Shown here: positions 88 to 12,813 of the stretch, one piece after another
Layout: each line of letters starts with the position of its first letter
How positions within the stretch are numbered: the stretch's first letter is position 1
Origin: Candidatus Stramentimicrobium fermentans
Lineage (GTDB): Bacteria; Atribacterota; Phoenicimicrobiia; Phoenicimicrobiales; Stramentimicrobiaceae
DNA length: 13,342 nt
Direction: 5' to 3'
Assembly (NCBI GenBank): GCA_012520575.1
Contig: JAAYOB010000037.1
Location: forward strand, 1 to 13,342
The notes under the pieces: generated by a model
Seen by the model: only the letters and a program-made list of their open reading frames with translations
What the model was told of the DNA's origin: nothing
The model's database searches: none
Translations under genes and position numbers: made by a program

Positions 88-504
88 ATGAATAAAATTA
101 ACACTGACCCGATATTTGAGAAGGGTCATAAAGCGGAAGGCAAATATGGTAAAAATTTTACAGGTCAGGTATGGCTTAAAACCCTGGTAGAGCAAAATGG
201 TGAATGGAATTGCACCATTGGCAATGTTACCTTTGAACCAGGATGCCGAAATAATTGGCATAAACATCCCGGCGGGCAGATACTTTTAGTGACTGGTGGT
301 CGAGGATGGTTTCAAGAGTGGAGCAAGGAGGCAAGAGAAATTTATCCCGGCGACGTAGTAAAAATTCCGGCCGATACAAAACATTGGCATGGTGCTGTAA
401 AAAATTGTTGTCTTACACATCTCTATGTTACCACAAATGTTAATAAGGGACCTACTGAATGGATGGAGCCCGTATCAGAAGAAACCTATAATAAACTCAA
501 ATAA
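88..504 (+). CDS. Small cupin protein, hydroxynitrile-lyase-like Mn-cupin family
   Basis: A 138-residue single-domain cupin, the normal size for this family. Metal ligands are visible: H58-x-H60 and Q64 in the first cupin motif (glutamine replaces the usual glutamate) and H99 in the second, after a PGD at 87-89. H101 and H111 sit where the active-site histidines lie in the manganese cupins typified by Granulicella hydroxynitrile lyase, and the C-terminal WMEPV segment is also family-like. No signal peptide, so cytoplasmic. Start ATG at 88 has AAGGAG at 76-81, six bases upstream. It lies 239 bases before ttdA in the same orientation. Fold and metal site are well supported; most relatives have no known reaction, so substrate and any link to dicarboxylate metabolism are inference. 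Confidence 0.85.
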   Translation: MNKINTDPIFEKGHKAEGKYGKNFTGQVWLKTLVEQNGEWNCTIGNVTFEPGCRNNWHKHPGGQILLVTGGRGWFQEWSKEAREIYPGDVVKIPADTKHWHGAVKNCCLTHLYVTTNVNKGPTEWMEPVSEETYNKLK

Positions 505-743: not shown

Positions 744-1643
744 GTGGATAATAAACAAAGTATCTCTATTATCACAGGAATAATGGCAAAGTTTATTAAT
801 TACACGGGTAAGCACCTGCCGGATGATGTTCTGGTAAAATTAAAAGAATTAAGAGATAGTGAGGACCAGAAATTAGCAAGATTAGTTTATGAAACAATGT
901 TTGATAATCTCGAAAAAGCAATACAACTTGATAGGCCGATTTGTCAGGATACCGGAGTGCTTAATTTCTTTATCCGGGTAGGTTCTAATTTCCCCTATTT
1001 AGCTCAATTGGGAGATATTCTTAAGGAAGCTGTTAAGATTGCGACAATAGAATCTCCACTGAGACATAATGCGGTTCAAATATTTGACGAGGTTAATACC
1101 GGTGACAATACTGGAGAAAGAACACCGTTTATTCATTGGGATATTGTTGATGATAATGATTATGTTGAAATTGAATCTTACATGGCAGGAGGGGGCTGCA
1201 GCTTACCGGGGAGAGCAATCACGCTGATGCCTTCACAGGGGTATGAAGCCATCGTAGAGTATGTTTTTGATACAATGGTCGATTGGGGGATTAACGCCTG
1301 TCCTCCATTACTAATTGGGATTGGTATTGCCGGTTCGGTTGAAAATGCTGCCCTGCTTTCTAAAAAGGCTATTTTGAGACCAATCGGAACCCATCATCCC
1401 AACCCCAAAGGAGCAAAAATGGAGGAAATGCTTGAAAAAGGCCTTAATGAAGTTGGGATAGGGCCCCAAGGGATTTCTGGAAATTCTTCAGTAATGGGTG
1501 TTCATATTGAATCTGCAGCGAGACACCCTTCCACTATTTCAGTTGCTATTAATGTTGGATGCTGGGCACATCGCAGAGGTTTTATTCGAATTAAAAGTGA
1601 TCTTTCATATGAAATATTGTCACATAAGGGAGTAACATTATGA
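744..1643 (+). CDS. ttdA: L(+)-tartrate dehydratase alpha subunit
   Basis: 299 residues, close to the roughly 303 of E. coli TtdA. With TtdB it dehydrates L-tartrate to oxaloacetate using an oxygen-sensitive 4Fe-4S cluster in the cytoplasm. It belongs to the class I fumarase/tartrate dehydratase superfamily; the three cluster-ligand cysteines are present as C67 (in CQDTG), C186 (in NACPP) and C273 (in GCWAHRRG). The [11 protein letters not shown] stretch (148-158) and [10 protein letters not shown] (255-264) are in the form I recall for TtdA rather than for fumarase A. GTG start at 744 is fixed by GAAAGGAG at 731-738. It overlaps ttdB by the four bases ATGA, implying translational coupling. 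Fumarase, or a related hydratase such as mesaconase, remains an alternative because single sequences in this family are hard to assign. Confidence 0.9.
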
Positions 1644-2245
1644 AAAAAATATTGACAACACCTATTAAGAATAAAGATATAGCTGATATTAAAATTGGAG
1701 ATATTATATATATAGAAGGACACCTTATTACTTGTCGTGACGTTGCTCACCGAAGACTTATCGAGCTTGGTATAAAGCTCCCGGTTAATTTAGAGGGTCT
1801 TACTATATTTCATGCAGGGCCTATTGTTAAGAAAGAAAATGGTCACTACTCCATGGTATCGATAGGGCCCACAACTAGCATGAGAATGGAACGGTTTGAA
1901 AAAGATTTTATAGAACAGACCGGCGTGAAAATAATTGTTGGTAAAGGTGGCATGGGTGACAGAACCGCCCGGGCTTGCAAAGAAAATAAAGCCTTACACT
2001 GTGTGTATCCTGCCGGGTGTGCTGTGTTGGCAGCAACTCAAATTGAAGAAATTGAAGATGCGGAATGGACCGATCTTGGGATGCCGGAAACACTGTGGAT
2101 TTGCCGAGTAAAAGAATTTGGGCCATTAATTGTATCAATTGACAGCAAGGGAGAGAATCTTTTTGAGAATAATAAATCCCTGTATAATCAACGAAAAGAT
2201 ATTGCCGTTGAAGAGATTTCTAAGAAAGTTAAATTCATAAGATAG
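1640..2245 (+). CDS. ttdB: L(+)-tartrate dehydratase beta subunit
   Basis: 201 residues, the same length as I recall for E. coli TtdB. This is the swivelling beta domain that completes the active site formed with TtdA; in fumarases the equivalent is the C-terminal half of one chain. Recognisable segments are [12 protein letters not shown] (31-42), FHAGPIVKK (57-65), GPTTSMRME (76-84), the glycine-rich GKGGMG (101-106), PAGCAVLAA (124-132) and the C-terminal [12 protein letters not shown] (157-168). No signal peptide. The ATG overlaps the ttdA stop, so the subunits should be made in equal amounts. A weak A/T-only hairpin (ATAGC at 2242-2246 with GCTAT at 2268-2272, inner GTAAAAA/TTTTTAC) overlaps the stop codon; it is not a standard terminator. 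Confidence 0.9.
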
Positions 2246-2788: not shown

Positions 2789-3775
2789 ATGTTAAAAAAG
2801 TTGTTAATATTGTTATTGGCGGCATTCACACTTGTCGGTATATTGATAGGCGCAGCTAGCGCTGCTGAATATGCCATAAGAGTTGGCCATACTGGTGCTC
2901 CCGACCATCATTATCAATATGGCTGTGAATTTTTTGCTGAAAAAGTTGCTGAAAAGACAAATGGCCGGGTAGAGATATTAATATTTCCGGCTGACCAATT
3001 AGGCGGACAACGGCAGGAAACCGAAGGTTGTCAAATAGGAACTCATGATATGGTATTAACATCAACTATGATTTTATCTAATTTTGAACCTTCTATCGGT
3101 GTTTTTGATATGCCTTTCCTTTTTACTTCCCCTGAACATGCTTATGCAGTAGGAGATAGTGAAATTACGGAAGAAGTATCTGCAAAATTTGAAAAAATTG
3201 GTTTAAAAATTCTCGCCTACTGGGAAAACGGCTTTAGATACATAACAAATTCAAAACGACCTATCACAAAACCGGAGGATTTAAAAGGATTAAAAATAAG
3301 AGTTCCGGAAAGTCCGGTTTTTTTGGAAACATTTAAAGCCCTGGGAGCTGCTCCAACACCAATGGCTTTTGGAGAAGTTTTCTCTGCTCTACAGCTGGGT
3401 ACGGTAGACGGACAGGAAAATCCTGCTGCTCATGTTATCCACAATGCTTTTCATGAAGTTCAGGATTATATTTCTTTGACCGGTCATTTCTATACATTCG
3501 AACCATTAGTAATGAGTAAAAATCTTTATGATAGTCTGCCGGCTGACATTCAACAGGCCATTGTTGAGGCAGCTATTGAGGCAGCAGCTTACGAACGTCA
3601 ACTTTCTCAAGACTTTGATAAAGAATGTTTAGAAAAAATTGCTGAATTAGGAATGGAAATCTCAGAAGTTGATAAAGCTGCATTCCAAAAAGCAGTAGAA
3701 CCAGTATATGATAAGTATAAAGATAAATTTGGGGAAGTAATAGAAAAAATAAAAGCAATGGATCCATCTTTGTAA
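2789..3775 (+). CDS. dctP: TRAP transporter periplasmic solute-binding protein
   Basis: 328 residues, typical for DctP. It captures a carboxylate outside the membrane and delivers it to DctQM. A signal peptide spans about 1-25 (KK, hydrophobic core, likely cut after ASA at 23-25). Mature-domain hallmarks are NGFRYITNSKRP (147-158), the LKGLKIRVPES segment (165-175) whose R171 should form the salt bridge to the substrate carboxylate, and FGEVFSALQLGTVDGQENP (194-212). The ATG at 2789 has AAAGGAG ten bases upstream. The neighbours argue for a C4 hydroxy-dicarboxylate such as tartrate or malate as ligand, but the sequence alone does not show this. The hairpin that follows (3897-3926) may keep this message more abundant than those of the membrane subunits. 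Confidence 0.95.
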   Translation: MLKKLLILLLAAFTLVGILIGAASAAEYAIRVGHTGAPDHHYQYGCEFFAEKVAEKTNGRVEILIFPADQLGGQRQETEGCQIGTHDMVLTSTMILSNFEPSIGVFDMPFLFTSPEHAYAVGDSEITEEVSAKFEKIGLKILAYWENGFRYITNSKRPITKPEDLKGLKIRVPESPVFLETFKALGAAPTPMAFGEVFSALQLGTVDGQENPAAHVIHNAFHEVQDYISLTGHFYTFEPLVMSKNLYDSLPADIQQAIVEAAIEAAAYERQLSQDFDKECLEKIAELGMEISEVDKAAFQKAVEPVYDKYKDKFGEVIEKIKAMDPSL

Positions 3776-3953: not shown

Positions 3954-4493
3954 TTGTCAGCTGTATTAGAGAAAATATTAGAGCCATTCAATAAATTGAT
4001 AAGATGGTCAATGATTTTGAGTTTTTCCCTTATGGTTATTTTTATACTTATGCAAATATTATACAGATATGTATTGATAAGACCTATACCCTGGGCCGAA
4101 GAGGCTGCCAGATTTTTATTCGTTTGGGCAACTTTTCTTGGAGCAAATGTTGCCGTCAGAACAAATCAGCATACCAATGTTTCTTTTCTCATAGACCGAG
4201 TTCCGGAAAAATACAGAAAAATAATGTTGTTGGCGAGTTATGCTTTGTCAATGGCTTTCATGATTTACATCTTGATATACGGATTGAGGATTTCTTTTTT
4301 GGTTACCAGACAAACTTCGCCTGCACTTCAACTTTCTATGTTTTACCCGTATATAGTTCTACCTGTTGGAGCTCTTATTATGTTGTTAAACTTCCTTCTC
4401 CTTTTTCTTAAAGAGACTGAAAAATCTAAACCAGTATTTTCCGGAAAGATAGAGGTTAAAAATGATAAAGAAAATAGCAAGGGGGTAAAGTAA
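3954..4493 (+). CDS. dctQ: TRAP transporter small membrane subunit
   Basis: 179 residues, normal for DctQ. The small integral membrane subunit associates with DctM in sodium-coupled carboxylate uptake. About four hydrophobic helices are visible (roughly 17-40, 52-70, 90-112, 130-152). The family signature is the stretch around 34-58, with QILYRYV followed by PWAEEAARFLFVW, then the charged RTNQHTNV. A TTG start at 3954 is chosen because AAGGAGG (3937-3943) sits 10 bases upstream and no ATG lies nearby in frame. The C-terminal tail is short and lysine-rich. It ends one base before the dctM start, so the two are almost certainly co-translated. Confidence 0.92.
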   Translation: MSAVLEKILEPFNKLIRWSMILSFSLMVIFILMQILYRYVLIRPIPWAEEAARFLFVWATFLGANVAVRTNQHTNVSFLIDRVPEKYRKIMLLASYALSMAFMIYILIYGLRISFLVTRQTSPALQLSMFYPYIVLPVGALIMLLNFLLLFLKETEKSKPVFSGKIEVKNDKENSKGVK

Positions 4494-4494
4494 A

Positions 4495-5772
4495 TTGGTG
4501 GCATTTTTATTTGGTCTTTTCGTTTTATTTCTACTTTTAGGAATGCCAATTGCTGTTGCTTTGGGAATTGCATCAGTATGGACTATTCAAAAGTATACAA
4601 CTGTAAATTTATCAATTGCTCCTCAGGTAATGTTTAAAGCAGTTGACAGCTTTCCTCTTATGGCAATTCCTTTCTTCATACTGGCTGGAAATGTTATGTC
4701 GCGGGGAGGGATTTCCCGGAGACTGGTTAATTTTGCAAGTTCTTTAGTGGGCACTGTTACTGGCGGACTTGCCCATGTATCAATATTTGCTTCCATGTTT
4801 TTTGCCGCTATTTCGGGATCTTCGCCGGCAACAACCGCAGCAATAGGTGCCGTAATGGTTCCCGAGATGGAAAAGAAAGGATATGACAAGGAGTTTTCTG
4901 CTGCAGTTGTTGCAGCTGCAGGCACTGTTGGTGTTATTATTCCGCCCAGTATTCCTATGGTATTATATGCAGTGTTAGCAGGAGTTTCGGTAGGAAGATT
5001 ATTCCTTACCGGATTTGGTCCAGGCATCTTAATGGGGGTGCTCATGATGATAGTGGCATATTTTATTTCAAAAAAAAATGGATACGCAGGAACAGAAAAA
5101 GCAACTTTTTCTCAAGGTCTAATCGCTTTTAAAGATAGTTTCTTTGCATTATTGATGCCATTTATTATCTTGGGAGGCATTTATGGAGGTATTTTTACTC
5201 CTACAGAGGCAGCGGCAGTTGCAGTTTTATATGGTATTTTAGTAGGATTATTTGTTTACCGCGAGCTTAAATTAAAGGAGATACCTGAGATAATTTTTTC
5301 TTCAGCAGTAGGTTCTGCTGTTATAATGTTCCTTATTTCAACAGCAAACTTATTTGGATGGTTTTTAGTTCGTGAAATGATACCTCAACGCTTAGCAGAA
5401 GCAGTGGTTTCTTTAACAACCAACCCTTATATCGTACTTCTTTTGATAAATTTGTTTCTTTTGGTTGTTGGTACTTTTATTAATACAACAGCGGCAATTA
5501 TATTAGTTACCCCTATTCTACTTCCTATCTTAGTAAAGGTGGGCATTGATCCTTTATTTATGGGCATAGTTATGATTGTTAATTTGGCAGTTGGAATGAT
5601 TACACCACCGGTAGGATTGTGCCTATTTGTTGCATGCAACCTTGCCAAAATATCACTAGACAGGCTGACAGTTGCAATACTTCCTTTTTTAGTGATTCTT
5701 ATAGTTGCAATATTTTTAGTTACCTATGTACCGGCTATTTCAATGTTTTTACCGAACCTGCTAATGCCGTAG
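4495..5772 (+). CDS. dctM: TRAP transporter large permease subunit
   Basis: 425 residues, the usual DctM length. This is the ion-coupled transport channel of the TRAP system (ion transporter superfamily) with about 12 membrane helices. Clear signatures are AIPFFILAGNVM (57-68), SGSSPATTAAIG (107-118), GVIIPPSIPMVLY (146-158) and the second-half GIFTPTEAAAVA, followed near the C-terminus by VGMITPPVGL. Two adjacent starts are possible, TTG 4495 and GTG 4498; GGGGG at 4481-4485 fits TTG slightly better, and the choice changes only one residue. It follows dctQ with a one-base gap. 101 bases separate it from the dehydrogenase gene, without a terminator-like hairpin. Confidence 0.95.
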   Translation: MVAFLFGLFVLFLLLGMPIAVALGIASVWTIQKYTTVNLSIAPQVMFKAVDSFPLMAIPFFILAGNVMSRGGISRRLVNFASSLVGTVTGGLAHVSIFASMFFAAISGSSPATTAAIGAVMVPEMEKKGYDKEFSAAVVAAAGTVGVIIPPSIPMVLYAVLAGVSVGRLFLTGFGPGILMGVLMMIVAYFISKKNGYAGTEKATFSQGLIAFKDSFFALLMPFIILGGIYGGIFTPTEAAAVAVLYGILVGLFVYRELKLKEIPEIIFSSAVGSAVIMFLISTANLFGWFLVREMIPQRLAEAVVSLTTNPYIVLLLINLFLLVVGTFINTTAAIILVTPILLPILVKVGIDPLFMGIVMIVNLAVGMITPPVGLCLFVACNLAKISLDRLTVAILPFLVILIVAIFLVTYVPAISMFLPNLLMP

Positions 5773-5873
5773 ACTGTTAATAGTTTGATTAAAATTTGTG
5801 CTAGTTCAATACTTTAACAAAGGTAAAAAATATCTTTCAATTGAAAATATTATCAAAGGAGAGACGAGATAAG

Positions 5874-6980
5874 ATGGGCGGCAAATACAATATAGCCGTT
5901 ATTCCAGGAGATGGTGTAGGTCCGGAAATTATCAAGGAATGTAAAAAAGTGCTAAAATGTGTCTCTGACATTAATGGTATTGTATTTCATACCAAAGACT
6001 TTCCATGGGGCTGCGATTATTATTTGCAAAACGGAAGAATGCTTGACAAAAATGCCTATTCAATACTAAAAGATTTTGATGCGATACTAATGGGCGCTGT
6101 AGGAGATCCGCGAGTTCCCGACCACATATCAGTGAGGCTGGTTATCGATATCCGTTTTACTTTTGATCAGTATATTAATCTGCGGCCCATTCTCAGGTTT
6201 AAGGAAGCCCCGGTGTTCATTAAAGGGCTTGAATCTCAAGAACTGAACTTTTTTGTAGTTCGAGAAAATACCGAAGGTGAATATGTGAATGCCGGCGGTA
6301 GATTCAAGCGGGGAACACCGGATGAGGTAGCTATCCAAACCTCAATATTTACCCGAAAAGGTACTGAAAGGGTAATACATTATTCTTTTGAACTAGCTGA
6401 AAAAATAAAAAGGTTAGGAAAGAAAGAACAAGTTTCCGTTACCAATTGCACTAAATCAAATGCATTGGCCTATTCTATGGTATTTTGGGATGAGGTTTTT
6501 GATAAAGTAGCTAGTAAATTTCCAGATATAGTTACTAAAAAAACATTGGTGGATGCGTTAACCATGTGGCTAATTAAAAATCCTTTTGATTTCGATGTTA
6601 TCGTGGCATCAAATTTATTTGGCGATATTATTACAGACTTGGCTTCCGTTCTTCAGGGAGGAATGGGTTTTGCGGCAGGTGGAAACATAAATCCGGAAAA
6701 AGAATTCCCCTCCATGTTCGAATCAATTCATGGCTCTGCCCCAAAATATGCCGGTAAAGGAATCATAAATCCAATTGCTTCAATCTTAGCCGTTAAAATG
6801 ATGTTGGAACATCTGGGAGAATTTGCTTCAGCTGAACTCATCGAAAAAGGAGTTGCCTCCATAATAAATAATGGCAAAGTAAAAACTCATGACATGGGTG
6901 GAAATACAACGACTTCACAAGTTGGAGATATTCTTTGTAAAGAAATGCATACAATGTCTCAGAATAATAAAATTTCCTGA
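5874..6980 (+). CDS. Tartrate/D-malate-type decarboxylating dehydrogenase
   Basis: 368 residues from the ATG at 5874. It belongs to the NAD-dependent beta-decarboxylating dehydrogenases (isocitrate, isopropylmalate, tartrate, D-malate). Visible are the N-terminal IPGDGVGPEI (10-19), substrate arginines R94, R104 and R130, the catalytic tyrosine in RENTEGEY (Y137), the catalytic lysine in TKSN (K194), metal-ligand aspartates D227, D251 and D255, and HGSAP (286-290) at the NAD site. WGCDYYLQNGRM (45-56), GAVGDPRVPDH (74-84) and FPSMFESIHGSAP point to the tartrate dehydrogenase/DmlA branch. Expected reactions are D-malate to pyruvate plus CO2, or tartrate oxidation. A TTG at 5841 would add 11 residues, but AAAGGAG (5855-5861) lies inside that extension and serves the ATG. 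An isopropylmalate-like substrate cannot be excluded. Confidence 0.88.
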   Translation: MGGKYNIAVIPGDGVGPEIIKECKKVLKCVSDINGIVFHTKDFPWGCDYYLQNGRMLDKNAYSILKDFDAILMGAVGDPRVPDHISVRLVIDIRFTFDQYINLRPILRFKEAPVFIKGLESQELNFFVVRENTEGEYVNAGGRFKRGTPDEVAIQTSIFTRKGTERVIHYSFELAEKIKRLGKKEQVSVTNCTKSNALAYSMVFWDEVFDKVASKFPDIVTKKTLVDALTMWLIKNPFDFDVIVASNLFGDIITDLASVLQGGMGFAAGGNINPEKEFPSMFESIHGSAPKYAGKGIINPIASILAVKMMLEHLGEFASAELIEKGVASIINNGKVKTHDMGGNTTTSQVGDILCKEMHTMSQNNKIS

Positions 6981-7029
6981 GAATAGAAAACTTGATTAAT
7001 AAAGATATTTAATGAAAGAGGGTATCTAT

Positions 7030-7899
7030 ATGAAAATGTCTAAAAAGCTACGAAATTTATTTAAAGAAAAAAGAACAATTGTTGCTCCCGGCGCCCATGA
7101 TGTGTTAACAGCGAGAATTATTGAACAAACCGGATTCGATGCAGTTTATATGACCGGATATGGCACTTCCGCCAGTGTGCTGGGAAGGCCGGATGTCGGA
7201 TTATTAACTATGACCGAGATGGTAGAAAGAGCAAGGAATATAGCCGATATTATTAATGTTCCCTTGATTGCGGATGCTGACACCGGGTATGGAGATGTAA
7301 TAAATGTCATTAGAACAGTAAGAGAGTATGAAAAAGTTGGAGTTGCCTGCATACAATTAGAAGACCAGGTGGCACCAAAAAAGTGCGGGCACATGTTGGG
7401 AAGAGAGATTATTCCGGCAGAAGAAATGGTGAGGAAGATTAAGGCTGCCCTGGATGCACGTACTGACCCGGATTTTATGATAATGGCTAGGACCGATGCC
7501 AGAACTAATTATGGTTATGAAGAAGCAATCAGAAGGTGCAAACTTTATAAAGAAGCAGGAGCAGATATTATTTTCTTTGAATCACCTGAAAGTAAAGAAG
7601 AAATGGAAAAACTAAATAAAGAACTCGGCGATACTCTGACATTAGCAAATATGTTAGAGAAAGGCAGGACTCCTCTTCTTAATGTTGCCGAATTAGAACA
7701 ATTAGGTTACAATTTAGTAATTTTTTGTGTTTCATCTGTCTACGTTACTACCAGGGCAGTTAAGGAACTTATGGAATATCTTAAAGAGAATGGAACTACA
7801 AAAGACTTGATTCAAGACAAAATGATATCATTTGAAGAATTTAATACCATGATTGGGCTGGATGACATTAGAGCAATAGAAGAAAAGTATAAGATTTGA
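7030..7899 (+). CDS. Isocitrate lyase/PEP mutase superfamily C-C lyase
   Basis: 289 residues from the ATG at 7030, a TIM-barrel family of this size. Motifs in order: APGAHDVLTA (19-28), TGYGTSAS (42-49), the metal-binding DADTGYGD (82-89), LED (110-112), the gating loop KKCGH with presumed catalytic C119 (117-121), MARTDA (152-157), FFESP (182-186) and NMLEKGRTP (207-215). An intact cysteine loop is the mark of true lyases (methylisocitrate lyase, 2,3-dimethylmalate lyase, oxaloacetate hydrolase) rather than PEP mutase. In this operon it may cleave a 2-hydroxy-dicarboxylate or act on oxaloacetate; the exact substrate is unknown. An ATG at 7012 lies upstream, but AGAGGG (7017-7022) sits between it and 7030, favouring the latter. 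It begins 49 bases after the dehydrogenase. Confidence 0.85.
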   Translation: MKMSKKLRNLFKEKRTIVAPGAHDVLTARIIEQTGFDAVYMTGYGTSASVLGRPDVGLLTMTEMVERARNIADIINVPLIADADTGYGDVINVIRTVREYEKVGVACIQLEDQVAPKKCGHMLGREIIPAEEMVRKIKAALDARTDPDFMIMARTDARTNYGYEEAIRRCKLYKEAGADIIFFESPESKEEMEKLNKELGDTLTLANMLEKGRTPLLNVAELEQLGYNLVIFCVSSVYVTTRAVKELMEYLKENGTTKDLIQDKMISFEEFNTMIGLDDIRAIEEKYKI

Positions 7900-7912
7900 T
7901 AATAGATAACAT

Positions 7913-8039
7913 TACTATAGCCATGTCTTTTATTGTTTAGAATAACCATGGTAGGTCAATTGAGAACAAATACTATAGCCAAAGCCTTAGATGCAGGGTA
8001 ATTAAAAGAAGTTAATGCAATGGCTTTGGCTTGGCTATA
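7913..8039 (+). promoter_or_regulatory. Nested inverted repeats upstream of larA
   Basis: AGCCAAAGCC (7977-7986) is the reverse complement of GGCTTTGGCT (8022-8031). GGCTATA (8033-8039) can pair with TATAGCC in either of two copies, 7916-7922 or 7974-7980; each copy sits in a 10-base direct repeat, TACTATAGCC (7913-7922, 7971-7980). A further pairing, CCATG (7921-7925) with CATGG (7947-7951), competes with part of this. No T-run follows. The mutually exclusive pairings would suit a leader or attenuator, but no known riboswitch class was recognised. Confidence 0.45.
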
Positions 8040-8118
8040 TTGGAAAGCATTACATTGTATAGAGCAAAATTTTAACTGACTTTTAAAGTTTTTAAATACG
8101 AATACTTTGGGGGATTAT

Positions 8119-9390
8119 ATGCTTAAAGAAAACAATATTGCATTAAAGTATGGAGATCGGAAGATCGAATTTCAGATAGCAGAAAAAAATATTATAGATA
8201 CTCTTCATGCAAATCAGATAGAACCATTAAAAGAACCCTCTAATAGGCTAGAACAACTTTTAGAAAAACCGATAAACAGCCCATCTTTGGAACAATTAAT
8301 TCGGGAGAAGAAAGCCCAAAAGATTTCAATTATTGTCAATGATGTCACTAGGCCCACGCCCTATCAGGTTCTTCTGCCCCCACTGCTTAAGAAACTCGAG
8401 GCATCCGGAGTTAAAAAAGAAAATATCATATTTTTGATTGCTACCGGAGCTCATCGTGGAAATACTAGGGAAGAAAATATTAAAACTTTTGGAGAGGAAC
8501 TCGTATCTTCCTATCAATTTGTTAATCATAGCTGTGATGATGAGGGATTGATTGATTTAGGTGAATTAAAAAGTGGAAACCGTTTGCTTGTCAATCCAAT
8601 TGTAGAGCAAATTGATTTTATTATTACTACAGGTGTTATCGTACCCCATTATATCGCAGGATTCTCCGGTGGAAGAAAATCAATCCTCCCGGGGATATGT
8701 GGCAGGGAAACCATTGAAAAAAACCATGCCTTTATGGTTCATCCTAAGGCTGCAACCGGTAATTTAGAAGGTAACCCCGTTCAAGAAGAGATGACAGAAG
8801 CGATAGGAAAGGTTAAAGTAGATTTTAATATTAATGTAGTTACCGATGAAGATGGTAATATTGTAGATATTGTAGCCGGAGAGTTGATAGCCTCCTGGCT
8901 GCAGGGAGTAGAAGTTTGTAAGAATACCTATCTTTGTCCTATAAAAGAGAAGGCCGATGCAGTCTTTACCAGTGCCGGTGGATATCCTAAAGACATTAAT
9001 ATCTATCAAGCCCAAAAAGCATTAGATAACGCCTATCAGGCAGTGAAGCCCGGCGGGACCATAGCTTTATTAGCTGAGTGTCGTGAAGGTATCGGGAATT
9101 CTATTTGCCAACAATGGATTGAGGAAGCACGTTCTATCGAAGATATAGAGGCACGTCTAAAGAAACGGTTTGTTTTGGGAGGACATAAGGCCTATGCTAT
9201 AGCCAAAGTGGCTAAAGAAGTAGAAATTATCTTAATATCCTCACTACACAAAAAACTAGTGCAAAAAATGTTTATGATTCCGGCTAATGGCATACAGGAT
9301 GCCCTTACCCTGGTTCAGAAAAAACATGGCTCTAATTTTAATTGCTATATAATACCCAACGGAAGTGTTGTCCTGCCACAAATAAAATAA
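8119..9390 (+). CDS. larA: LarA-family nickel-dependent 2-hydroxyacid racemase/epimerase
   Basis: 423 residues, the LarA size (lactate racemase catalytic subunit, DUF2088 family). Active-site residues of Lactiplantibacillus LarA are all present at nearly constant offset: D75 and R78 in NDVTRPTP, H112 in ATGAHRG, H177 in VPHYIAGFSGGRK, K187 (the lysine that bears the nickel-pincer nucleotide), H203 in KNHAFM, Y296 and K300 in YQAQK. The enzyme moves a hydride at C2 of a 2-hydroxyacid. Relatives act on lactate, malate, other hydroxyacids or aldonates; the operon suggests malate or tartrate. Start ATG 8119 is preceded by GGGGGA (8109-8114); the in-frame TTG at 8107 overlaps that site and is rejected. 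The cofactor genes larB, larC and larE are not in the window. Confidence 0.88.
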   Translation: MLKENNIALKYGDRKIEFQIAEKNIIDTLHANQIEPLKEPSNRLEQLLEKPINSPSLEQLIREKKAQKISIIVNDVTRPTPYQVLLPPLLKKLEASGVKKENIIFLIATGAHRGNTREENIKTFGEELVSSYQFVNHSCDDEGLIDLGELKSGNRLLVNPIVEQIDFIITTGVIVPHYIAGFSGGRKSILPGICGRETIEKNHAFMVHPKAATGNLEGNPVQEEMTEAIGKVKVDFNINVVTDEDGNIVDIVAGELIASWLQGVEVCKNTYLCPIKEKADAVFTSAGGYPKDINIYQAQKALDNAYQAVKPGGTIALLAECREGIGNSICQQWIEEARSIEDIEARLKKRFVLGGHKAYAIAKVAKEVEIILISSLHKKLVQKMFMIPANGIQDALTLVQKKHGSNFNCYIIPNGSVVLPQIK

Positions 9391-9573
9391 GAAATGAAAT
9401 CATTATATATAGAACTGCCATTCAACCCGCTCATCTCTCTCTTTCAATATAATTTTCTAAATTTCATTAATATTGCCGACTTTGAATGGCGCCCAGACAT
9501 GTTACTGTGAAATTTTCAGTAGGGTAGTGAAGAAATCAATAATATGGTATTGGAACGCGCTTTTTAATAGTAA

Positions 9574-9863: not shown

Positions 9864-10595
9864 TTATTGGGTTGATGAATTATCTATAGTTCCCGTAATT
9901 CGCAAGAAAAGCATATTATTCTGAGGATCGTTAGTCATAATGCGAACTGCCTTACGAAAATCCCCCTCTTTTAACCGGCTGACATCTAAATAAACTTCTG
10001 CCAGTTGTTGTCCTTCCGAAGGTATAGTAAGCGGCAATAATAGATTATGGCTGAATAATTCTTCTGCCACTATATCTTCAATTATTAGGTCGGCATCACC
10101 TGTATTTGTGATGCAAAATTGTGAAATAGCCTGTTCCTTACAATTAATAGTTCCCAGATCAAAGGTCTGCTGTGATAACTCTATAACAGGATGAGGAACC
10201 CTTAAAACGGTTATAGATAACTCGATTTTCTTTTCAGGGGCTTTGGGGTCATTTGATTTAATGGTAAAATTCTTTGAAACATATCCCTCATATCCATAAG
10301 GGTCAAAGATAGTACCAAGCATCGTTTTTCCTCCAGCCGGAATAGTTTTTTCGGCTAATTCCAAGCTGACACATGCACAGGAGGAATAGATTGATTCAAT
10401 TTTCAGATCAGCCTCGCCTTCATTTTTTAAGGTAAATTGATGTGCTGCAATCTCATCGGGTTTAACTTCACCGTAATACCATTCCTCTTCAGATAATACT
10501 AACTTAGGCTCCTTAGGATTACCGCAACCAGTTAAGCAGAGAAGGGTAATAAAGAAAATAAGAACAATGATTGATTGTTTTTTTGAACATACCAT
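9864..10595 (-). CDS. DUF1573 lipoprotein with two repeats
   Basis: 243 residues. The N-terminus is a lipoprotein signal ending in the lipobox LTGC (C24), so the protein should be membrane-anchored outside the cytoplasm. Two immunoglobulin-like DUF1573 repeats follow, about 33-130 and 137-236. The first carries the characteristic SSCACV (C73 and C75) after an FTLKNEGEADL segment; the second has the matching ITNTGDADL but no paired cysteines. Both end in an SNDP/TNDP strand. Function of DUF1573 is unknown; CxC pairs often accompany redox proteins. The ribosome site GAGAGG lies 11 bases before the ATG. It is 27 bases downstream of the redoxin-like gene on the same strand, so the two form an operon. 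Confidence 0.88.
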   Translation of the reverse strand: MVCSKKQSIIVLIFFITLLCLTGCGNPKEPKLVLSEEEWYYGEVKPDEIAAHQFTLKNEGEADLKIESIYSSCACVSLELAEKTIPAGGKTMLGTIFDPYGYEGYVSKNFTIKSNDPKAPEKKIELSITVLRVPHPVIELSQQTFDLGTINCKEQAISQFCITNTGDADLIIEDIVAEELFSHNLLLPLTIPSEGQQLAEVYLDVSRLKEGDFRKAVRIMTNDPQNNMLFLRITGTIDNSSTQ

Positions 10596-10622
10596 TATAA
10601 CTAATACCTCTCAAAACAATTA

Positions 10623-11243
10623 TTACCAATCAGGCGGGGGACTGCATCCGTCATCACATCCGCTGCTGCTACTTTCCTTAGCTTTACGAGAGGAGAAGGT
10701 AAAGCTCAGATACTGATAAAAGCTCGTTTCATGTCGTTTAGTAAAGAGGTCATAGGCCTTTCTAATATAAAGGTCAGACCTTAACATAAGAATGGTAGGG
10801 TAGCCTTCTATTCCGTATTCAGCATTTACCTTACCCTGTTCGTCCCATAGCATGATGAAGGGAACGCCGGTTTCCTCTGTTAGATTAGTGAAATTTTCTA
10901 ATATTACATCTGTGTCCTCATTTTTCTCAAAAATTGCCACAATCTGATAACTTTCCTGTGGCTGATAATCATAAAAGAAGGCAATTAAGTCTTCTAATTT
11001 CCCGACAGAAGTCTCATCTCCAATATCTATAAAACAGAGCATCAGATGCTGTTGTTTATTGAGAAATTGATTTAGCTGATAGGCTTTACCATCTAAAGTA
11101 TTTAGACTAAAATCAGGTGCAGGGGAACCGACCTTATATTGAGCTAATGATGAACTGAAAGTAAGGAAGAATATGCCTACAACGGCAACTATTATAAATA
11201 TAATCGTATTAATACTAAAATTTTTAGTTCTTTTTTTAAACAT
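10623..11243 (-). CDS. Exported redoxin-like protein lacking the CxxC active site
   Basis: 206 residues. An N-terminal hydrophobic segment (about 12-34) is a signal peptide or anchor. The thioredoxin-fold redoxin (AhpC/TlpA type) begins at VGSPAPDFSLNTLDGK (38-53) and includes the cis-proline loop GYPTILML (147-154). Where TlpA proteins have WCxxC after the first strand, this one has LCFIDIGDETS (69-79): both catalytic cysteines are missing and only C70 is nearby. The C-terminal tail is unusual: four serines, then CDDGC (C196, C200), then prolines. The domain may be a catalytically degenerate binding module, or the tail may supply the thiols. Ribosome site AAGGAG at 11256-11261, 12 bases from the ATG; an in-frame stop lies just upstream, so the start is secure. 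Confidence 0.82.
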   Translation of the reverse strand: MFKKRTKNFSINTIIFIIVAVVGIFFLTFSSSLAQYKVGSPAPDFSLNTLDGKAYQLNQFLNKQQHLMLCFIDIGDETSVGKLEDLIAFFYDYQPQESYQIVAIFEKNEDTDVILENFTNLTEETGVPFIMLWDEQGKVNAEYGIEGYPTILMLRSDLYIRKAYDLFTKRHETSFYQYLSFTFSSRKAKESSSSGCDDGCSPPPDW

Positions 11244-11291
11244 AGTAAACTATAACTCCTTATTGATGCAATATATTATTGTATCATTTTT

Positions 11292-11297
11292 ATTATA
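11292..11297 (-). promoter_or_regulatory. Putative -10 box for the redoxin-DUF1573 operon
   Basis: TATAAT read on the minus strand, about 50 bases before the ATG at 11243. No good TTGACA-like -35 is found at 16-18 bases, so this is a tentative call based on the perfect -10 and its position. Confidence 0.35.
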
Positions 11298-11488
11298 TAA
11301 CATTTTACGGAAAACTTCATTAAAATATAGCTATTTAACCTAAATATTATTATCGCCTTATAAATAGATAGTATTAGAAATACAATTAAGTAGTTATCAG
11401 GTTTCTATCCTGTAGATATAGTTTTAAATTCATAATGAAGTAAAAACCACTGCTAAGACTGTCGATTTCGTCCAAATCTCAAAAAATT

Positions 11489-11517
11489 TTGATGTTCTAA
11501 AATAGAATAGGTATAAT
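11489..11517 (+). promoter_or_regulatory. Sigma-70-type promoter for the thioredoxin/CcdA fusion gene
   Basis: TTGATG (11489-11494, 4 of 6 to consensus) and TATAAT (11512-11517, 6 of 6) are separated by exactly 17 bases. The predicted start is near 11524, giving a leader of about 45 bases before the ATG at 11569. Confidence 0.65.
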
Positions 11518-11568
11518 GAAAAATATATTATCAGATAGAATGCCATAAGAATAATAGCGGAGTTTTAA

Positions 11569-12813
11569 ATGAATAGAATTTATCAAAAACGAATAGGTTT
11601 TAACCTTAAGAATAGCGGTGGCATGATTACCACCATTTTTTTATTATTGCTTTTATTGTTTCACAATTGCAATACAGGAGATTCCTCTTGCTGGGCTCAA
11701 GAAGTCACTGCCGGCAATTCAGTTGAACCGGTATCTGTCTATATTGCTGATTTTTTTGAACCAGGCTGCCATGATTGCGAAAAAGTAGATAGACTTTTGG
11801 AGCAAATTACATTTTTACATCCAAATGTAGAGATAAGAAAGTTTGATATCTCCGCTCCGGAAGGTGTAACATTCGCAGAAAAATTGGGTGAGATATACGG
11901 TGTCTCGGAATATGACCGTTTAGTAGTTCCCCTAATCTATATCGGTGACAACTATCTCTTAAGAGACCAGATTAACTATGACAGCATTCTGGACTTAGTA
12001 GAGCGGGCCGGGGCAGAGGACATTCCTCCCTGGGAAAGAGCAGAAGAAGATGATAGTTCTGTCCAGCAACGGCTTATAGAGCGTTTCCAATCCTTTGGCA
12101 TCGGGGCAATTGCCATAAGCGGACTTATTGACGGGATTAACCCCTGTGCCTTTGCTACCATAATCTTTTTTATCTCTTATCTTGCTTTGATTAAGAGGAC
12201 CGGAAAAGAATTGCTCCTGGTGGGCAGTATGTTTACCCTGGCAATATTTTTGACCTATTTTCTAATCGGTGCCGGTGCCTTAAGGGTAGTAACAACGCTT
12301 TCTTTCTTACCGCTCGCCAGGCAGATATTCATCTATGTTACCGCCGGAATAGGTCTTATTTTGGGAATACTGAGTCTTTCGGATTATTTTAAGTACAAAA
12401 AGACGGGAGAAACCTCTGAGGCAACTCTACAGTTACCGCCTCGCATTAAACAGATGATCCATTCCACTATTCGGAAGAATGTCAAAACCCATAATTTTGT
12501 CATAATGGCTGCGGTAACCGGCTTTATGGTTTCTATCTTAGAGTTAGCCTGCACCGGACAAATATATTTACCTACTTTAATCTTTATCAGCCATGTACCG
12601 GAATTGAGAGGACATGGATTATCTTATCTTTTACTATATAATTTTATGTTTGTGGTGCCTTTAATTTTGGTCTTCTTATTTACCTACTGGGGAACCAGCT
12701 CGCAGAGATGGGCTGAATTGACCAAACAGCACTTTGGTGCTACGAAATTGATTATGGCTGCTCTATTCTTTGGGCTGGCTATCATGCTTATTCTTACCGG
12801 AGTGCTCTTTTAG
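11569..12813 (+). CDS. Thioredoxin-like domain fused to CcdA/DsbD-type membrane protein
   Basis: 414 residues. After a hydrophobic N-terminal segment (about 19-33), an extracytoplasmic thioredoxin/glutaredoxin-like domain carries CHDC (C67, C70) and a cis-proline at VVP (P121). A linker at about 150-170 leads to a membrane domain with roughly six helices. This domain has the two cysteines expected for CcdA/DsbD electron transfer, C193 in GINPCAFATI and C328 in LELACTGQIYLP. The expected role is to move electrons from cytoplasmic thioredoxin across the membrane to thiols outside. The start is fixed by GCGGAG (11557-11562) six bases before the ATG and by a good promoter. It diverges from the redoxin-DUF1573 operon, whose products are likely partners. 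Family and topology are well supported; the specific partner is inference. Confidence 0.88.
   Translation: MNRIYQKRIGFNLKNSGGMITTIFLLLLLLFHNCNTGDSSCWAQEVTAGNSVEPVSVYIADFFEPGCHDCEKVDRLLEQITFLHPNVEIRKFDISAPEGVTFAEKLGEIYGVSEYDRLVVPLIYIGDNYLLRDQINYDSILDLVERAGAEDIPPWERAEEDDSSVQQRLIERFQSFGIGAIAISGLIDGINPCAFATIIFFISYLALIKRTGKELLLVGSMFTLAIFLTYFLIGAGALRVVTTLSFLPLARQIFIYVTAGIGLILGILSLSDYFKYKKTGETSEATLQLPPRIKQMIHSTIRKNVKTHNFVIMAAVTGFMVSILELACTGQIYLPTLIFISHVPELRGHGLSYLLLYNFMFVVPLILVFLFTYWGTSSQRWAELTKQHFGATKLIMAALFFGLAIMLILTGVLF

Follow-up and report, generated by a model that had tools for sequence, protein, structure and literature searches.

Described LarA-type enzymes

The lactate racemase LarA of L. 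plantarum (PDB 5huq) is served by larB, larC and larE, the known synthesis genes of the nickel-pincer nucleotide (NPN) cofactor. Mar2 (LarAH6) of Thermoanaerobacterium thermosaccharolyticum is a malate racemase (PDB 6d6z and 7s91; PMC7583248), in which the lysine of a GHK motif (K351) probably holds the second carboxylate (PMC7583248). LarAH62 of Sporomusa termitida is likewise a malate racemase, with a side activity on tartrate; its kcat/KM is 6.3 x 10^5 for malate and 1.1 x 10^4 and 3.5 x 10^3 for two tartrate reactions, that is, tartrate is epimerised about 57-180 times less efficiently than malate is racemised (PMC11770544).

The operon and its conservation

The window, namely the whole stretch of DNA analysed (13,342 nucleotides; positions 1-13342 of contig C20), belongs to a draft genome of 1.58 Mb in 50 contigs, which is 98% complete and has a GC content of 36%. 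It carries an operon of eight genes, all on the + strand, of which the larA homologue is the last:

744..1643, + strand: ttdA, L(+)-tartrate dehydratase alpha subunit (NF006084, 498 bits; cut-off 365)
1640..2245, + strand: ttdB, L(+)-tartrate dehydratase beta subunit (NF006082, 360 bits; cut-off 264)
2789..3775, + strand: dctP, TRAP transporter solute-binding protein (PF03480, 327 bits; TIGR00787, 277 bits, cut-off 175)
3954..4493, + strand: dctQ, TRAP small permease (PF04290, 117 bits)
4495..5772, + strand: dctM, TRAP large permease (TIGR00786, 464 bits; cut-off 268)
5841..6980, + strand: tartrate/D-malate dehydrogenase-like gene (tdh), isocitrate/isopropylmalate dehydrogenase family (TIGR02089, 419 bits, below the cut-off of 470)
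7012..7899, + strand: lyase of the PEP-mutase/isocitrate-lyase superfamily with a KKCGH motif (PF13714, 179 bits)
8119..9390, + strand: larA homologue, LarAH6/Mar2 malate racemase group (NF052593, 535.7 bits; cut-off 500)

The initial annotation had placed larA in a tartrate/malate neighbourhood devoid of lactate genes, and both parts of this description are borne out: the profiles identify ttdA, ttdB, the TRAP transporter, the tartrate/D-malate dehydrogenase-like gene and the lyase, and the window proteins scanned include no member of a lactate permease or lactate dehydrogenase family. The nearest solved structure to the dehydrogenase-like protein (5841..6980) is tartrate dehydrogenase/decarboxylase (3flk), and the best solved match of the lyase (7012..7899) is the petal death protein (1zlp, 258 bits). 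The order ttdA-ttdB-dctP-dctQ-dctM-tdh-lyase-larA is repeated in a second genome of the same genus (G002, locus L043), with genes 54-88% identical; thus, the arrangement is not due to chance. In other relatives, the larA orthologue adjoins fumarase alpha/beta and a malic-enzyme-like gene (G003 and G010), adjoins fumarase (G011), or lies directly after dctPQM (G019). All of these contexts, including that of G002, fit a C4-dicarboxylate substrate.

The start of larA is given as the ATG at 8119, but its frame is open back to a TTG at 8107. No nickel riboswitch or other known RNA was found near larA, and promoter and terminator scans produced no more matches than in shuffled sequences. A structured leader at 7898-8118 was considered and rejected (fold z-score -1.6; no alignment possible to G002). 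Upstream of ttdA, a cupin at window positions 88-504 scores 136.7 bits against the (R)-mandelonitrile lyase model, just under the cut-off of 140. Beyond larA and outside the operon, the region 9864-12813 contains two - strand DUF1573/Ig-like and thioredoxin-like genes and a + strand membrane protein that, by eye, looks like DsbD/CcdA.

Family and active site of the larA product

The larA product is a complete LarA homologue (Pfam Lar_N, 223 bits; LarA_C, 79.5 bits). Besides passing the curated LarAH6/Mar2 malate racemase model listed above, it fails the models for lactate racemase (NF033504, 367 bits; cut-off 460), LarAH5 (377 bits; cut-off 462) and LarAH10 (402 bits; cut-off 540). Among solved structures Mar2 matches it best, which is enough to settle its fold, and in a tree of 22 sequences it groups in the Mar2 clade with support of 100/98, away from two lactate racemases that fall outside. 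The residues D72, R75, H108, H174, K184, H200, Q295 and K298 (L. plantarum LarA numbering), which we take to be the NPN and catalytic sites of LarA, are all present, which upholds the conservation of catalytic residues claimed in the initial annotation. This choice of positions is partly backed by earlier studies (PMC7583248; PMC11770544).

The protein carries GGHK at the aligned place of the GHK malate motif and thus has in common with Mar2 the family model, the NPN residues, this motif and the clade. Judged from sequence, it is an added member of the characterised malate racemase group and fairly ordinary as an enzyme. It differs from Mar2 in its loop, which reads Tyr-Ile where Mar2 has Tyr-Lys and relatives have Tyr-Phe, in having GGRK rather than GGHK at the NPN lysine, and in its setting, a tartrate dehydratase operon in a genome without larB, larC and larE. 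Because identity to Mar2 is only 37.5% and the loop is Tyr-Ile, the pocket is expected to differ from that of Mar2. Members of the window's genus have Ile as second loop residue and Ala just before H108, where relatives have Phe and Ile, respectively; these replacements could widen the pocket.

The domains and all eight residues are also common to L. plantarum LarA, and together with the score against the lactate racemase model (367 bits) they might suggest a true lactate racemase that came to lie in this operon by chance. However, identity to L. plantarum LarA is 33%, the substrate pocket is a different one, the lactate model cut-off of 460 is missed, and the tree sets the protein apart from the lactate racemases; it has YI and GGHK in place of their FF loop and DQW motif. 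Score, tree and motif thus lead us to reject identity as a lactate racemase, and a chance placement of such an enzyme is extremely improbable.

Malate or tartrate as the predicted substrate

Family and gene context make malate (or tartrate) the predicted substrate, and the sequence supports assignment of the protein as a malate racemase, perhaps also a tartrate epimerase. LarAH62, likened here by published activity alone, shows that one such enzyme can act chiefly on malate and secondarily on tartrate. It is possible, although unlikely, that tartrate is the main substrate, in which case meso- or D-tartrate would be epimerised to L(+)-tartrate and then dehydrated by TtdAB to oxaloacetate. This proposal draws on the scores of ttdA and ttdB above the L(+)-tartrate dehydratase cut-offs, on the resemblance of the dehydrogenase to tartrate dehydrogenase, on the gene order kept in G002, and on two replacements, Phe by Ile in the loop and Ile by Ala before H108, which could fit a second hydroxyl. 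However, G003 has the same two residues, yet its larA adjoins fumarase and a malic-enzyme-like gene; therefore, Ile and Ala are no marker of a tartrate enzyme. Moreover, given the 57-180 fold preference for malate of LarAH62, a characterised relative (PMC11770544), tartrate is not favoured over malate as the main substrate. The idea of the initial annotation, in which a tartrate epimerase or malate racemase acts as a stereochemical gateway to isomer-specific enzymes, therefore survives in part: by sequence the enzyme falls outside the lactate racemases, and its family and gene context indicate malate or tartrate, but tartrate is not preferred to malate as the main substrate and the supply of the cofactor is missing from so simple an account.

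Absence of the cofactor synthesis genes

The initial annotation had tied its proposal to pincer-cofactor genes elsewhere in the genome; none was found over cut-off, and by that measure the proposal would fail. Profile searches of this 98% complete genome gave no larC match, and larB and larE matched only below curated cut-offs. The LarB match proved to be PurE (TIGR01162, 202 bits), and the LarE matches were TilS, GuaA and one PP-loop protein; PP-loop counterparts also occur in lar-bearing relatives. The comparison was extended to 50 genomes of the phylum, including ten drafts of the window's family (completeness 68-100%) and 14 genomes of its sister family. None of the ten genomes of the window's family contains larC, or larB or larE over cut-off; LarA-type matches are present in nine of them, and LarAH6 is over cut-off in five. 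In the sister family, all three genes are present in nine of the 14 genomes and none of them in the other five. Across the phylum, larB, larC and larE are mostly present or absent together, although G033, G043 and G045 have larC without one or both of larB and larE over cut-off. Since lar genes also occur in the phylum's other families, their loss is the more likely history for the window's family.

The sister family has a conserved order of genes, to which short names were assigned by reading of the sequences: metallopeptidase-like, comB-like, apgM-like, recD2-like, yjbQ, larC, larB, larE, cobO-like and btuFCD-like. In the window's family, yjbQ is present in nine of the ten genomes, where it adjoins recD2 in eight and a contig end in the ninth. 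On its far side, the site of larC in the sister family, the contig goes on in eight of the nine genomes, and in all eight the flank consists of an opposite-strand ORF of 242-245 amino acids (with a TPR match in the window's own genome) followed by other genes; no lar genes lie at this site on any of the eight contigs. The cobO-like and btuFCD-like genes that follow larCBE in the sister family (L062 and relatives) are also missing at the locus in the window's family (L089 and relatives).

These comparisons show that the absence of lar genes holds at the yjbQ locus and, as far as profiles detect, genome-wide, a pathway without sequence resemblance being invisible to profiles. The family might nevertheless make NPN, its larB, larC and larE having been missed in incomplete drafts, having diverged too far, or having been replaced by analogues. 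All of its genomes are indeed drafts, profiles are blind to analogues, and one PP-loop protein of the window's own genome matches LarE weakly. On the other hand, the chance that incompleteness alone removed the locus from all ten genomes is about 3 x 10^-11, eight contigs cross the expected site, most of the sister family and of the phylum gives 280-535 bits with these profiles, and the PP-loop protein has its counterpart in lar-bearing relatives. This alternative is accordingly very unlikely, although its analogue variant overlaps with the explanation preferred below.

Selection on larA and a probable horizontal transfer

Within the genus, dN/dS is about 0.06-0.10 for larA, similar to the 0.02-0.09 of its operon neighbours and the 0.09-0.14 of larA in lar-bearing relatives; all these values are rough because dS is near saturation. 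The LarAs of the lar-less family are therefore under purifying selection. The ratio of larA dN to that of recD2 or apgM is 1.2-2.0 in the genus, compared with about 1.2 in one lar-bearing pair; larA is thus somewhat faster than these genes, and a mild relaxation may have occurred. Because the protein retains its NPN-binding residues and remains under purifying selection, the absence of cofactor genes is not taken to refute the proposed chemistry.

That the known NPN synthesis genes are missing from the whole family, yet larA is kept under selection, could also mean that the enzyme gave up NPN and now either has a different nucleotide bound or works as an apo-protein whose function has changed. 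However, all eight residues, among them the tethering Lys184 and the nickel ligand His200, are identical to those of lar-bearing relatives, and the protein nests with LarAs of larBCE-bearing genomes rather than on a separate branch. Abandonment of NPN is thus quite unlikely.

The LarA of G009, a member of the window's family without larBCE, is 91% identical to that of G016, a member of the sister family also without larBCE, and only 60-62% identical to those of the window's genus, although recD2 of G009 is 80-83% identical to that genus. The larA contig of G009 also carries a purE with 73-81% identity to its own family and 59-65% identity to the sister family, which makes it unlikely that the contig as a whole was misbinned. 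In both genomes (G009:C69, L045; G016:C15, L048 and L074), the gene after larA is aldehyde-ferredoxin-oxidoreductase-like and nearly identical at its start, and the larA pair has a dN/dS of 0.18 at a dS of 0.34. It is probable from these sequences that the two genes were transferred between the families and that G009 gained larA horizontally. Uptake and retention of larA by a lar-less lineage argue that the enzyme works there.

A model for racemisation and cofactor supply

From the family, the residues, the conserved operon, the absence of lar genes and the selection observed, we infer a substrate, an activity, a cofactor use and a cofactor source as follows. The protein is, somewhat more probably than not, an NPN-dependent racemase of C4 2-hydroxydicarboxylates, which most likely interconverts L- and D-malate with side epimerisation of tartrate at C2, and its NPN would be scavenged or obtained by an unrecognised route. 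The racemase would serve a TRAP-fed C4-dicarboxylate operon and link the L-specific steps (L-tartrate dehydratase, L-malate) with the D-specific tartrate/D-malate dehydrogenase. If the reaction resembles that of LarA, the C2 hydride would pass to the lysine-tethered nickel-pincer nucleotide, giving a brief keto acid, and two histidines, acting on opposite faces, would remove and return the proton. As LarB, LarC and LarE are missing from the genome, the cofactor should come from outside, presumably by scavenging from neighbouring NPN producers, or be made by an unrecognised pathway; no candidate emerged for an NPN transporter or an alternative synthase.

At the level of the enzyme, this proposal adds a tartrate operon to the settings of the known malate racemase group. 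The main interest lies outside the window, in the keeping of NPN enzymes by cells without a known NPN synthesis route: a LarA with intact residues and under continued selection, without synthesis genes, suggests that cells import NPN as they would a vitamin or produce it in another way.

Other NPN-type enzymes and LarA without larC in other bacteria

The window's own genome encodes three NPN-type enzymes without larB, larC and larE, and the retention of two of them beside the larA product likewise favours the NPN-based model. A second LarA type on contig C44 (L059:9090-10454) has loop FM, a DQW motif and all eight residues; its gene adjoins a sugar-acid-dehydratase-like gene (enolase superfamily), with TRAP genes upstream. 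This type also occurs in four other genomes of the family, with all eight residues and 67-72% identity to the C44 copy. The third enzyme is an intact group-22 NPN isomerase on contig C11 (L060:9036-10289; 510.8 bits, cut-off 400), encoded directly after an aminotransferase-like gene. In addition, a decayed larA copy with stop codons lies at C27:3268-3908 (L058), with pieces that match window positions 8125-8421 (81%) and 9142-9500 (93%); since the two pieces are side by side, the middle of the copy was deleted. A conserved cluster of the sister family (L054, L055, L056 and L057) contains another LarA type, with loop RY, an SGxI motif and all eight NPN residues.

In a wider sample of 389 bacterial genomes at least 90% complete, for which larC alone was checked and lists were transcribed by hand, strong LarA matches (E at most 1e-40) were present in 111, of which 23 (about one in five) are without larC. 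Outside the phylum, larC is absent from 18 of the 97 genomes with strong LarA; the probability of 18 or more arising through missed genes is 6 x 10^-8 at a miss chance of 4% per genome and 0.007 at 10%. One larC-less genome with LarA, G341, is a single contig of 2.17 Mb, and 17 of the 18 LarAs from larC-less genomes outside the phylum keep all eight residues. The phenomenon is thus not special to the window's family. It is tempting to speculate, with the balance about even, that NPN racemases are used without the known synthesis route, by import or an undiscovered pathway, throughout the family and perhaps in a good part of the bacteria with LarA. The occurrence of LarA without NPN synthesis genes may already be partly known. 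The reverse case, larBCE without larA, has been noted, for example, in many cyanobacteria (PMC11796402); NPN synthesis is likewise uncoupled from LarA in those organisms, which are the mirror image of the window's family.
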